Below are positions 7,661-10,988 of a stretch of DNA of 64,000 nucleotides, in pieces. Position numbers and translations under genes: made by a program. Where the stretch lies: the NCBI RefSeq assembly GCF_018448785.1, contig NZ_JAHCLU010000004.1, forward strand, positions 124,001 through 188,000, given 5' to 3'. Every line of letters begins with the position of its first letter. Position 1 is the first letter of the stretch. The stretch is from Halomonas jincaotanensis (GTDB taxonomy: Bacteria; Pseudomonadota; Gammaproteobacteria; Pseudomonadales; Halomonadaceae). The notes beneath the pieces were generated by a model. That model had not been told where the DNA came from. It was given only the letters and a program-made list of their open reading frames with translations, and searched no databases.

Positions 7661-8454
7661 CGGCAAGGACCCTGACCTGCCAGGTCGCAGAGGTCGAGGA
7701 CCTCACCCCGGACGTCTTTCGCGTCACCCTGGAGGGTCGACCCCAAGCGGTGGCTCACGCGCCGGGGCAGTATCTGGAGATGCGGCTCGATGACGCCACC
7801 TGGGTGCCCTTTTCCATCGCCAACGCCCATGGCGGCGACGGCATCATCGAGCTGCATATCCAGCACTGGCCGGAGCGGGACAACTCGGCGCGACTGCGCG
7901 AGATCCTGCAGGTTGCCGAGCGGCTTACCCTGCGCTTGCCCGGCGGCGACTGCCAGCTCGACCCGGACAGTCGCCGGCCGCTCTTGCTGATCGCGGCCGG
8001 CACCGGTTTTTCCCAGATGAAGGCGATTGTCGAGGCGGCGCTGCATGCCGACCCGCAGCGCGAGATCGACCTGTGGTGGGCGGCGCGCGAACGCCGCGAC
8101 TTCTACCTCGAGCGCCTGCCCCTCGAGTGGGCCGCGACGCATGACAATGTCCGCTTTCACGCCGTGACCGAGATCGCACCGGAAGCGCCTGTCGTGGGCG
8201 AGCGGGTCACGACCCACCGAGGGCGGATCGACCAGGCGCTGGCCGCCACCCTCGATGATGTCTCGGGCCACGATGTCTATGTTTCCGGCTCGCCGGGCAT
8301 GGTTTATGCCTGCGTCGACGTGCTGGCTTCGCTGGGGCTCAAGGCCAGTCGGGTCTTTTCCGATGTCTTTGCCTATGCGCCTCGCGACCCGCTGGTACCC
8401 ACCGCGGGCAGCCTGGTGGGCAAAAGCACGCAGGAAAGGGAAGACAGCCGATGA
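7657..8454 (+). CDS. fre: NAD(P)H-flavin reductase-like oxidoreductase (Fre/LuxG type)
   Basis: A 265-residue ferredoxin-reductase-fold protein. It has the flavin-binding motif VPFSIAN (about 50-56; RPFSIAS in Fre), the nucleotide-binding AAGTGFSQM (113-121), the [11 protein letters not shown] pyridine-nucleotide segment and the C-terminal [10 protein letters not shown] seen in Fre. It probably reduces free flavin. Placement directly after ubiD, with a 4-base overlap, is common in gammaproteobacteria and suggests a supply of reduced flavin for the UbiX/UbiD branch; that link is inference. Confidence 0.85.
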
Positions 8455-9164
8455 GCGCCTCGCCGATCCTGATCACCGGTGGAGCCCAGCGTCTGGGCCG
8501 CCACTGCGCCGAACGCCTGCGCGACGACGGTCACCCGGTCATCATTACCTATCGCCGTGAGCGCCCCGCCCTCGAGGCGCTGCGCGGACGTGGCGTTATC
8601 ACGCTGCAGGCAGATTTCGAAACGGAAGCAGGCATTATCGATTTCATCGCCCGACTCAAGGCCAAGACGCCGTCGCTGCGCGCCATCGTCCATAATGCCA
8701 GCGACTGGGCACCGGACAGCAGCGGCAGCGAGGCGGGTGGCAATTTCGAGCGGTTGTTCCGGGTACACATGCTGGCGCCTTATCTGATCAATCTGCAGGC
8801 CCGCGTTCTTCTTGAGGCCTGCACCGAGCCGCACCGCGATATCGTCCACATGACCGATTACGTGGTGCAGAAGGGCTCGAAGAAGCACGCCGCCTATGCC
8901 GCCAGCAAGGCCGGGCTCGACAATTTGACCCTGTCGTTCGCCGCCATGTATGCGCCGACGATCCAGGTCAACGCCATCGCCCCGGCGATGATCATGCTCA
9001 ATGAAGGCGATGACGAGGCCTATGCCGCGAAGGTGAAGGCCAAGTCGGTCATGGACATGGTGCCGGGGCCGGGGGTGATCTACCAGAGCCTGCGTTACCT
9101 GCTCGACAACCGGTACGTGACCGGCGTGACGCTGCCGGTCGATGGCGGCCGGCATCTTCGCTAG
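8451..9164 (+). CDS. folM: Dihydromonapterin reductase FolM (short-chain dehydrogenase)
   Basis: A 237-residue SDR. It has the dinucleotide motif TGGAQRLG (9-16) and the catalytic pair Tyr149/Lys153 in YAASK. FolM-specific stretches are HNASDWAP, MTDYVVQKGSKKHAAY, VNAIAP and the C-terminal DGGRHLR, which closely follow my recollection of E. coli FolM. It reduces dihydromonapterin to tetrahydromonapterin and can act on dihydrofolate. The start overlaps the preceding gene by 4 bases, placing it at the end of the ubiD-fre-folM unit. Confidence 0.9.
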   Translation: MSASPILITGGAQRLGRHCAERLRDDGHPVIITYRRERPALEALRGRGVITLQADFETEAGIIDFIARLKAKTPSLRAIVHNASDWAPDSSGSEAGGNFERLFRVHMLAPYLINLQARVLLEACTEPHRDIVHMTDYVVQKGSKKHAAYAASKAGLDNLTLSFAAMYAPTIQVNAIAPAMIMLNEGDDEAYAAKVKAKSVMDMVPGPGVIYQSLRYLLDNRYVTGVTLPVDGGRHLR

Positions 9165-9217
9165 AATAGGCTCATCGTGATCATCCCCCTGAGAATTTCC
9201 CTTGAGAGGACATCGAG

Positions 9218-9346
9218 ATGACCGGACATGACGAGAACGTCAAGGACGGAAGTGGCCTGCTTTCCGTGGTGCTGGGCCTGGTGGTGCTAGTGGGCATGAG
9301 TGCTCTGCCGGTGACCGTCGGCATCGTGCAAATTTTCACCGGCTGA
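9218..9346 (+). CDS. 42-residue single-pass membrane protein, unknown function
   Basis: A short ORF with a clear ribosome site (GAGAGGA at 9204-9210, 7 bases before ATG). The product has a charged N-terminus (MTGHDENVKDGSG) and then a continuous hydrophobic stretch from about residue 14 to 40, ending QIFTG. It looks like a small inner-membrane peptide with the N-terminus in the cytoplasm. It starts 53 bases after folM and may be cotranscribed. I do not recognise a family. The good ribosome site plus a clean membrane segment make it more than a chance ORF. Confidence 0.6.
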   Translation: MTGHDENVKDGSGLLSVVLGLVVLVGMSALPVTVGIVQIFTG

Positions 9347-9413
9347 GGTTGCCGGTGTGCCTTGTACACGAGTGGATGTCCTCATGTCGGTAATGACCCC
9401 GCTGGCCCTTGCG

Positions 9414-9442
9414 TTTCGCCGGCCACAGCGGCACGATAGGAT
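9414..9442 (+). promoter_or_regulatory. Possible promoter upstream of the aromatic leader region
   Basis: TTTCGC (9414-9419) and TAGGAT (9437-9442) are 17 bases apart, about 34 bases before the first leader peptide. An overlapping alternative is TTGCGT 9409-9414 with CACGAT. Neither match is strong; the position is the main argument. Confidence 0.3.
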
Positions 9443-9475
9443 TGGTTTAACGATGTCAGCTGACAGGAAATACAC

Positions 9476-9613
9476 ATGACCCCGACGCGTTTCGTTGCAC
9501 TTCGCCAGACGGCTGGCCATGCGGCGGTGCCAGTCGGTCGTGCAAGCGTTACGGGTCGTGATTATGGGTTTGGCTATTGGTTTAGCACCGGCGTGCCGGA
9601 GGCCATGTCCTGA
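9476..9613 (+). CDS. Aromatic-rich leader peptide 1 upstream of DAHP synthase
   Basis: A 45-residue ORF with AGGA 7 bases upstream (9465-9468). Codons 30-36 read Tyr-Gly-Phe-Gly-Tyr-Trp-Phe, all three aromatic amino acids in one run (9563-9583), followed by STGVPEAMS and TGA. A chain of alternative RNA pairings begins 7 bases after this run and ends in a strong hairpin. This is the architecture of ribosome-mediated attenuation: stalling at scarce aromatic tRNAs would change the downstream fold. The peptide itself probably has no function after translation. Confidence 0.75.
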   Translation: MTPTRFVALRQTAGHAAVPVGRASVTGRDYGFGYWFSTGVPEAMS

Positions 9614-9710
9614 CCCACTCCCACTAGAGACCAGCGACATCGCCACGAGGCACGCCCAGCAGGGTTGCCTCCCCCAGAACCCCCGGACGGCAACCCCGCC
9701 CGGGGGTTCT
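9590..9710 (+). promoter_or_regulatory. Attenuator with alternative pairings (aromatic leader 1)
   Basis: Five segments can pair in exclusive ways, all perfect complements. Segment 1 GGCGTGCC (9590-9597, inside leader 1) pairs with segment 2 GGCACGCC (9649-9656). Segment 2 can instead use GAGGCA (9647-9652) to pair with TGCCTC (9666-9671). Segment 3 GGGTTGCC (9662-9669) pairs with GGCAACCC (9689-9696), which blocks the terminator. Terminator arms are 9676-9686 and 9700-9710. Predicted logic: stalling early in the aromatic codons leaves 1:2 and 3:4 to form (read-through); full translation hides segment 1, so 2:3 and the terminator form. Confidence 0.7.
9676..9710 (+). terminator. Hairpin terminator of the attenuator
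   Basis: AGAACCCCCGG (9676-9686) and CCGGGGGTTCT (9700-9710) form an 11-base perfect stem with a 13-base loop. The tract after it (GCGTTACAC) is poor in T, so termination efficiency is uncertain. Confidence 0.65.
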
Positions 9711-9757
9711 GCGTTACACACCACTCGACAATACAGATGACATCCAGGAGAGAGATC

Positions 9758-9916
9758 ATGACTGCATCAATCGCCATCCGTCTGACACGGGGCTTCGCGG
9801 GCTATTACGGCTATTGGCGATTTAGCGAACTGCGGTCGGCCCAGCGCGCCACCTCCGACCGTAGCGCTATCGGTGGTAACCCCACGCTACGATGTTTGCC
9901 TTGTTCACGGAGTTGA
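9758..9916 (+). CDS. Aromatic-rich leader peptide 2 immediately before DAHP synthase
   Basis: A 52-residue ORF with a strong ribosome site (AGGAGAG at 9747-9753, about 4 bases before ATG). Residues 13-22 read FAGYYGYWRF, six aromatics in ten positions. Its TGA lies 4 bases before the DAHP synthase ATG, in another frame, so termination could feed re-initiation on the enzyme gene. Its second half can fold: CGGTCGG 9833-9839 with CCGACCG 9855-9861 and GTAGCG 9861-9866 with CGCTAC 9885-9890, against CCACC 9849-9853 with GGTGG 9872-9876. CTCCG at 9853-9857 could also pair with the enzyme's ribosome site (CGGAG 9908-9912). Confidence 0.7.
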   Translation: MTASIAIRLTRGFAGYYGYWRFSELRSAQRATSDRSAIGGNPTLRCLPCSRS

Positions 9917-9920
9917 TTCG

Positions 9921-10988
9921 ATGACCGCCTCACTTGCCACCGCCCCGTTATCCGCCCCCGCTTCTCAACCCGACGCGCCGCCCAAGCAGGTGCTGCCGAC
10001 GCCGGGCGAGTTGCACCGCGCCCGGCCGCTTTCGGCCGAGCTCGCGGCGCGTATCAATCATCAGCGTCAGTCGATCCGCGATATTCTCGATGGCCGCGAC
10101 GACCGCCTGCTGGTGGTGGTCGGCCCCTGTTCGATCGAGGATCCGGCGGTCGCGCTGGATTATGCCCGTCGCCTGGTCGAGATGTCGGCGAAGGTCGAGG
10201 ATAGGTTGCTGATTGTGATGCGGGTCTATGTCGAGAAGCCGCGCACCACCGTGGGCTGGAAGGGACTCGCCTACGACCCAGATCTTGACGGCCGTGGCGA
10301 TATGGCCCGCGGCATTCGCGTCTCCCGCTATCTGATGCACGATATCGCCGAGCTCGGGCTGCCCGTGGCCACCGAACTGCTGCAACCGATGTTGGCACCC
10401 TACCTGGATGACCTGCTCGCCTGGGTGGCGATCGGCGCTCGTACGACCGAATCCCAGTTGCATCGCGAGCTTGCCAGCGGCCTCGAGGCCGTGGTGGGGT
10501 TCAAGAACGCCACTAACGGCGATATCGGCGTGGCGCTAGATGCAATCGCTGCCGCTGGCCATCCGCATAGTCACTTCGGTCTCGACGCCGAGGGGCGGCC
10601 GACGGTTCAGGAGACGGCGGGCAATGTCCATACGCATCTGGTGCTGCGGGGCGGACATGGCGAGCCCAATTATCAGGCAGCGCACGTGACCCGCGCTCGG
10701 CGTGCCCTGGAGGCAGCCGGACTGACGCCTCGGTTGATGGTCGACTGCAGCCACGCCAACGCGCGCAAGGATCATCACCGCCAGGGCGAGGTACTGCGCG
10801 ATGTGCTGGCCCAGCGCCTGGCGGGGCAGACGGCGCTGTGCGGCCTGATGGTCGAGAGCCATCTCCATGAGGGTAAGCAGCCGCTCATTCCCGGCCAGCG
10901 ACGTTATGGAGTCTCGGTCACCGATGCCTGCCTCGGTTGGGAGGCCACCGAAGACCTGTTGCTGACCGCCGCTCAGCGCCTGCGCTAG
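9921..10988 (+). CDS. aroG: 3-deoxy-7-phosphoheptulonate (DAHP) synthase, class I
   Basis: Condenses phosphoenolpyruvate and erythrose-4-phosphate, the first step of the shikimate pathway. From ATG 9921 it has 355 residues, like E. coli AroF/G/H (350-356). Metal and active-site positions are visible: Cys70 in GPCSIED, His278 in DCSHANARKDH, Glu312 in MVESHLHEG and Asp335 in SVTDACLGW; also KPRTTVGWKG and GARTTESQ. The in-frame codon at 9873 is rejected because GGAG at 9909-9912 fits 9921. The feedback type (Phe, Tyr or Trp) cannot be read from sequence alone, so the symbol is a family label. The two leaders upstream suggest control by aromatic aminoacyl-tRNA supply. Confidence 0.93.
   Translation: MTASLATAPLSAPASQPDAPPKQVLPTPGELHRARPLSAELAARINHQRQSIRDILDGRDDRLLVVVGPCSIEDPAVALDYARRLVEMSAKVEDRLLIVMRVYVEKPRTTVGWKGLAYDPDLDGRGDMARGIRVSRYLMHDIAELGLPVATELLQPMLAPYLDDLLAWVAIGARTTESQLHRELASGLEAVVGFKNATNGDIGVALDAIAAAGHPHSHFGLDAEGRPTVQETAGNVHTHLVLRGGHGEPNYQAAHVTRARRALEAAGLTPRLMVDCSHANARKDHHRQGEVLRDVLAQRLAGQTALCGLMVESHLHEGKQPLIPGQRRYGVSVTDACLGWEATEDLLLTAAQRLR

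Follow-up and report, generated by a model that had tools for sequence, protein, structure and literature searches.

Genomic context of the DAHP synthase gene

The 64,000-nucleotide stretch of Halomonas jincaotanensis DNA analyzed here, hereafter termed the window, encodes on its forward strand a type I 3-deoxy-7-phosphoheptulonate (DAHP) synthase (positions 9921–10988, with an ATG start at 9921 and the Shine-Dalgarno (SD) sequence CGGAG at 9908–9912). In agreement with the original prediction, the identity of this gene was confirmed by the profiles NF009395 (490 bits, cut-off 343), TIGR00034 (433.6 bits, cut-off 173) and PF00793. A dihydromonapterin reductase (FolM-like) gene (8451–9164; NF005066, 334 bits, cut-off 249) is located directly upstream, and the intervening DNA harbors two consecutive leader peptide ORFs with aromatic runs which, judging from the sequence comparisons described below, appear to form a real tandem, ribosome-sensed attenuator region in front of the DAHP synthase gene. 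Between the reductase gene and the leader lies a 42-residue, membrane-like ORF (9218–9346; MTGHDENVKDGSGLLSVVLGLVVLVGMSALPVTVGIVQIFTG); several relatives carry a similar stretch, and a family search with this ORF returned no match.

The DAHP synthase gene was sought in 58 relatives, in 201 genomes of the family and in named genomes, and its upstream region was read in more than 130 distinct loci, the named ones including representatives of Halomonas, Vreelandella, Billgrantia, Chromohalobacter, Cobetia, Salinicola, Halotalea, Pseudomonas, Stutzerimonas and Halopseudomonas. Halomonas korlensis provides the best named match, its DAHP synthase being 87% identical. The region upstream of the other DAHP synthase gene of the same genome (contig C1, ~50% identical) was found to be without an aromatic leader. 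Of note, one locus (L030, genome G003) lacks both leaders and carries an internal TGA in the DAHP synthase frame, i.e., leaders and gene seem to decay together.

The first leader peptide and its RNA segments

The first leader ORF (9476–9613, forward strand) consists of 45 codons, starts with ATG and specifies the product MTPTRFVALRQTAGHAAVPVGRASVTGRDYGFGYWFSTGVPEAMS, in which the aromatic codons (9560–9583) encode the run DYGFGYWF. It is preceded by the SD sequence AGGAA (9465–9469; AGGAG in relatives), and both the 45-residue ORF and its ribosome site are thereby as had been predicted. Further upstream, alignment of 30 relatives points to a promoter-like element, TTGCGT-N17-CACGAT (9409–9437, forward strand), which takes the form TTGCCA-N17-CAGGAT at the same place in these relatives and which a stricter consensus scan did not call. 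An in-frame ATG and an SD sequence for the predicted translation of the leader were present in 123 of 132 distinct loci, and a run with Phe, Tyr and Trp codons together was present in 131 of the 132. The peptide ending ...GYWFS, or a similar one, was found in nearly all loci read.

Downstream of the aromatic run, the RNA contains four segments, all on the forward strand. Segment 1 (GGCGUGCC, 9590–9597), which starts 9 nt past the first base of the last Phe codon, pairs with segment 2 (GAGGCACGCC, 9647–9656); the latter has segment 3 (GGGUUGCCUC, 9662–9671) as its alternative partner, and segment 3 may in turn pair with segment 4 (9689–9696), which lies in the loop and inner stem of an intrinsic terminator (9676–9717), 3:4 being the presumed antiterminator. 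The four pairings that had originally been proposed are all present and perfect, i.e., GGCGTGCC:GGCACGCC for 1:2 (9590–9597 with 9649–9656), GAGGCA:TGCCTC for 2:3 (9647–9652 with 9666–9671), GGGTTGCC:GGCAACCC for 3:4 (9662–9669 with 9689–9696) and AGAACCCCCGG:CCGGGGGTTCT for the 11-base terminator stem (9676–9686 with 9700–9710), while the 2:3 helix extends beyond the version first described (GAGGCA.GCCC...GGGUUGCCUC). The 3:4 helix and the outer terminator stem have no bases in common; they are mutually exclusive because the full terminator hairpin takes in the bases of segment 4. The RNA from 9578 to 9715 folds with a predicted energy of −67.4 kcal/mol, as against −49.0 kcal/mol for dinucleotide shuffles (z = −4.9). 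Past the terminator, the window has a weak U-tract (TTCTGCGTT) and Pseudomonas a strong one; the terminator of the window was not called by a simple terminator scan.

Covariation was assessed in an alignment of 52 Halomonadaceae loci, in which standard pairs account for 98.1% (1:2), 93.2% (2:3), 96.2% (3:4) and 99.4% (terminator) of cells, compared to maxima of 60.3%, 55.9%, 63.5% and 74.5%, respectively, in slid controls. For each of the four helices the covariation score was attained by none of 500 shuffles, which ignore relatedness, as opposed to the slid controls, which retain it. Changes on both sides of a helix were observed, for example U-A for C-G in 19 loci and C-G for U-A in eight loci in 1:2, C-G for U-A in 11 loci in 3:4 (12 doubly changed cells), and G-C or A-U for C-G in seven loci in the terminator, three pairs of which show double changes. 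Among Halomonadaceae relatives, the leader peptide is kept and all four pairings covary. Leader 1 thus displays the hallmarks of an attenuator, i.e., a coding leader with codons for the amino acids of the pathway, mutually exclusive and covarying helices, a terminator and a downstream gene of the same pathway, all of them conserved. These features strongly support the proposal of a ribosome-mediated attenuator in front of the DAHP synthase gene, and on their basis leader 1 is highly likely to act as an aromatic-sensing transcription attenuator of that gene.

Proposed switch logic of the first leader

When Phe-, Tyr- or Trp-tRNA is in short supply, a ribosome would be expected to stall on the aromatic codons at 9563–9583, its front edge stopping just short of segment 1, in which case segments 1 and 2 would pair, segment 3 would be free to pair with segment 4, the terminator would be delayed and the gene would be transcribed (antitermination). 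When aromatic amino acids are plentiful, the ribosome would reach the stop codon and mask segment 1, the 2:3 hairpin would form, segment 4 would be taken up by the terminator, and transcription would end with the release of a short RNA, presumably the counterpart of the Pseudomonas P15 RNA discussed below. With the Trp codon at 9578 or an earlier aromatic codon in the A site, the front edge of a ribosome lies at approximately 9590 or before, short of segment 1, and at the stop codon (9611–9613) part of segment 1 is covered and all of it has just been traversed. Folding with segment 1 available and the 3' arm of the terminator unmade gave mean probabilities of 0.95 for 1:2 and 0.97 for 3:4 (0.99 and 1.00 in the window), and folding with segment 1 masked gave means of 0.87 for 2:3 and 0.99 for the terminator. 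From these footprints and the state-dependent folding we infer that stalling should give read-through, which is the sign expected for a biosynthetic gene. With segment 1 masked and the terminator unfinished, the model still favors 3:4 (0.76 on average), and therefore 2:3 must form first; moreover, the finished terminator wins in both states at equilibrium, so that the switch must be kinetic. The proposed wiring predicts that the gene is on if leader 1 is not translated.

Neighboring pairings do exclude each other, as was originally stated, but the classical logic that was attached to them does not appear to apply, since a stalled ribosome seems to leave segment 1 free. In the trp leader, the stalled ribosome hides segment 1; were leader 1 wired in this manner, 2:3 would be the antiterminator. 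Part of segment 1 would indeed be covered by a ribosome stalled at the last Phe codon (9581), and 2:3 and 1:2 are mutually exclusive, yet 2:3 makes no contact with the terminator, and segment 3 has segment 4 as its partner, from which it follows that 2:3 would promote rather than prevent termination. Furthermore, standard ribosome footprints place segment 1 in the open on stalls at the Trp or earlier codons, and a trp-type wiring is considered improbable.

Relationship to the Rfam family P15

The best Rfam match, to the family P15 (RF00627), was identified at 9559–9706 on the forward strand (33.9 bits, E value 7.9e-5). As this score does not reach the gathering cut-off of the family (70 bits), the window element cannot be filed as a P15 member. 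Full members of P15 share the genomic context of the window element and its leader peptide: they are located at the same site before the same DAHP synthase gene, and possess a leader ending in GYWFS, the same segment layout and a CCCCGG-type terminator, the Halomonadaceae element being distinguished by a longer stretch between segments 1 and 2. The two elements are very probably homologous. A search of positions 9000–10500 against 4227 families returned no riboswitch or T-box family at E ≤ 5, with only weak sub-threshold matches.

P15 matches were obtained in 19 of 195 genomes of the order (12 read as loci, three as fetched regions and four, i.e., G000, G006, G110 and G191, by coordinates), in all 19 cases upstream of the same DAHP synthase gene. 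In one Pseudomonas genus a single strong match was found in 25 of 25 genomes, a short distance before the same gene and in the same orientation. Second, weak P15 matches in Pseudomonas genomes were dismissed as chance hits, being positioned between RNA polymerase and ribosomal protein genes, on the other strand and without an aromatic leader.

P15 is catalogued as an sRNA gene rather than as an attenuator. It was detected as a P. aeruginosa transcript or sRNA by Livny et al., as cited in PMC2375449, and its observation as a transcript fits a terminated leader RNA. A cis element was suspected for P15 in PMC2527527, where a riboswitch was guessed from synteny. The comparative data say that P15 would represent the attenuator leader of the DAHP synthase gene, which offers a role for a Pseudomonas RNA that is listed as an orphan sRNA. 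That the terminated RNA is instead a trans-acting small RNA with an incidental peptide ORF, in line with the listing of P15 by Rfam as a gene and not a cis-regulator and with its origin in an sRNA screen, is very improbable, given that every P15 match examined (the weak second Pseudomonas matches aside) immediately precedes the same DAHP synthase gene and is collinear with it, that 131 of 132 loci retain the ORF together with its aromatic run, and that a cis element had already been suspected (PMC2527527).

A second leader peptide followed by a pseudoknot

The original prediction ended at 9710; it holds for the leader 1 part but not for the extent of the region, as a second aromatic leader ORF and a pseudoknot, both missed, lie beyond that point. 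The second ORF (9758–9916, forward strand; 52 residues) sits between the terminator and the DAHP synthase gene, is preceded by the SD sequence AGGAG (9746–9750) and ends with a TGA codon (9914–9916) just past the DAHP synthase SD. Its product begins MTASIAIRLTRGFAGYYGYWRFSELRSAQRATSDRSAIGG and includes the run FAGYYGYWRF (9794–9823), the sole stretch with at least six aromatics per ten residues in the six frames of the window. Leader 2 (...WRF) was found in 144 distinct loci, 143 of which possess both ATG and SD, and 143 of which contain all three aromatics. Because Phe, Tyr and Trp codons co-occur in leader 1 as well as in leader 2, the suggestion that a shortage of any aromatic tRNA is sensed, rather than that of a single amino acid, fits the data. 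The ten bases TGGCGATTTA are identical in 63 of 63 aligned sequences, wobble bases included, an invariance that is partly due to selection, as the loci were gathered with a pattern including most of these bases.

Most of the 144 loci carry an H-type pseudoknot, which in the window starts 11 nt past the first base of the last aromatic (Phe) codon. Stem 1 is formed by GCGGUCGG (9832–9839) and CCGACCGU (9855–9862) and stem 2 by GCCACC (9848–9853) and GGUGGU (9872–9877), all on the forward strand, and the strands of both stems covary. Across 63 loci, 97.2% of cells are paired, as against 92.7% in shuffles and 23–49% in slid controls; six of the 14 pairs are doubly changed (39 doubly changed cells), and this covariation was attained by none of 500 shuffles. 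In Cobetia (L060), for example, the pairs are intact despite a different peptide and changes to most letters of the stems (CCUGCCUC:GGGGCAGG and GUCACC:GGUGAC), indicating that it is the RNA, and not the peptide, that is conserved there. In both leaders the first pairing strand begins at a nearly constant distance from the last aromatic codon, 9 nt in leader 1 and 11 nt in leader 2, and each element is therefore argued to be read by a ribosome stalled at that codon.

A model of the leader 2 element, searched against 195 genomes of the order and 229 of the class with stricter filters that may miss weak members, matched only before this DAHP synthase gene, in Halomonadaceae and Pseudomonas, and a search of Rfam returned no family at the pseudoknot. 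A short leader 2 without pseudoknot is present in the P. nicosulfuronedens type, Stutzerimonas and Halopseudomonas, and no clear leader 2 was seen in the Salinicola upstream region. In the Pseudomonas fluorescens group, one stem 1 pair (alignment A1, columns 21/45) is mismatched nearly throughout (U-U, C-U, C-A, U-C). In one further locus (L010, genome G036), leader 2 has lost its Trp codon and some aromatics (GGGCGATTTAGCG) and has retained the pseudoknot strands, thus providing a natural test of what the pseudoknot structure needs.

Comparison with known attenuation systems

The leaders of the enteric trp, pheA, his and leu operons act by transcription attenuation, and entry into the shikimate pathway is tuned in enterics by TyrR and TrpR. 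The present region resembles the enteric leaders in its leader peptide rich in the amino acids of the pathway, its alternative hairpins and its intrinsic terminator, and differs from them in that three amino acids would be sensed, in that the gene encodes the common-pathway entry enzyme, and in that stalling is proposed to favor 1:2 and not 2:3. The tandem attenuators of Salmonella mgtCBR likewise comprise two leader ORFs in one leader mRNA; however, mgtM and mgtP answer different signals, i.e., ATP and proline (PMC3641672), whereas both leaders described here contain the same three aromatics and the second is accompanied by a pseudoknot. The ermB leader, which exerts antibiotic-induced control at the level of translation, also possesses two leader peptides and differs in gene and signal (PMC8274638). 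For DAHP synthase genes, attenuation has been proposed for the uORFC-13-1 motif before aroF in Acholeplasma (PMC8632094), and aroF attenuators have been predicted in Shewanella (PMC2659441); these are set apart by their descriptions, with a single leader, mainly Phe or Tyr, and other phyla or orders.

A literature search, the scope of which excluded most subscription papers, including older comparative surveys of proteobacterial attenuators, retrieved for Pseudomonas and Halomonas no report of either an attenuator or a double leader at this gene. As far as the accessible literature shows, and with priority not certain, the link between P15 and attenuation of the DAHP synthase gene, the reversed helix parity and the second aromatic leader with its pseudoknot are new. 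The fuller proposal, to which we give about even weight, is that two aromatic-sensing leaders gate the gene twice, by termination and then by translation through a pseudoknot at the edge of the stalled ribosome, that this gate is ancestral to Halomonadaceae and Pseudomonas, and that P15 is its cut-off product. Such an arrangement would show how, in bacteria other than enterics, shikimate pathway entry can be tuned to all three aromatic amino acids together, and the same codons coupled to different RNA architectures in consecutive leaders constitute a directly testable case of two-level ribosome sensing. DAHP synthase is, moreover, a key target of metabolic engineering in both Pseudomonas and Halomonas.

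Possible modes of action of the second leader

Leader 2 (9758–9916) again presents a predicted aromatic stall site, here immediately before a conserved H-type pseudoknot, and may well add a second, translation-level control of the DAHP synthase gene; the case for its acting at translation is about evenly balanced. The DAHP synthase SD region is, in many Halomonadaceae, complementary to stem 1 (3' strand) and the following loop, the strand itself matching the SD in several relatives, which suggests one possible, albeit doubtful, role: a stalled ribosome would preserve the pseudoknot, keep the anti-SD strand busy and so free the DAHP synthase start. Consistent with such sequestration, binding of the pseudoknot strand in 61 loci, almost all of them from Halomonadaceae, is stronger to the SD region of the same species than to those of other species (−15.5 versus −13.5 kcal/mol; permutation p < 0.0002, relatedness not controlled), and lineage-specific matching changes, e.g., GUAGCG:CGCUAC and GUGAG:CUCAC, are observed. 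However, the corresponding pairing in the window is weak (−10.0 kcal/mol), opening the start site is predicted to cost the same whether or not the pseudoknot is formed, both in the window (−0.1 kcal/mol) and in Pseudomonas, and the leader 2 ORF spans the whole structure. Neither the window nor Pseudomonas thus upholds SD sequestration as a general function of the pseudoknot, and such a function would have to be a different one, for example pausing at the aromatic codons combined with translational coupling.

An alternative, put forward equally tentatively, is that the pseudoknot acts as a mechanical barrier and keeps ribosomes on the aromatic codons, control being exerted by translational coupling where stop and start overlap, or else that it is an aptamer for an aromatic metabolite. 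The spacer between the last Phe codon and the pseudoknot is that generally known from frameshift-type pausing pseudoknots, the invariance of TGGCGATTTA in the 63 sequences extends to wobble bases, and in Halomonas the leader 2 stop overlaps the SD region. Coupling is at odds with the Pseudomonas arrangement, in which the leader 2 stop is found ~50 nt before the DAHP synthase start, and the conserved unpaired bases of the pseudoknot are few, unlike those of an aptamer. A frameshift from leader 2 into the DAHP synthase gene was also considered and rejected: the frame is open upstream in the window and contains stops in most relatives, i.e., the fusion is not conserved. Finally, the hexamer CGATGT (9890–9895 in the window), located between the pseudoknot and the SD, is kept in most relatives and opens a short alternative frame, in some species the same as that of DAHP synthase and in others a different one.
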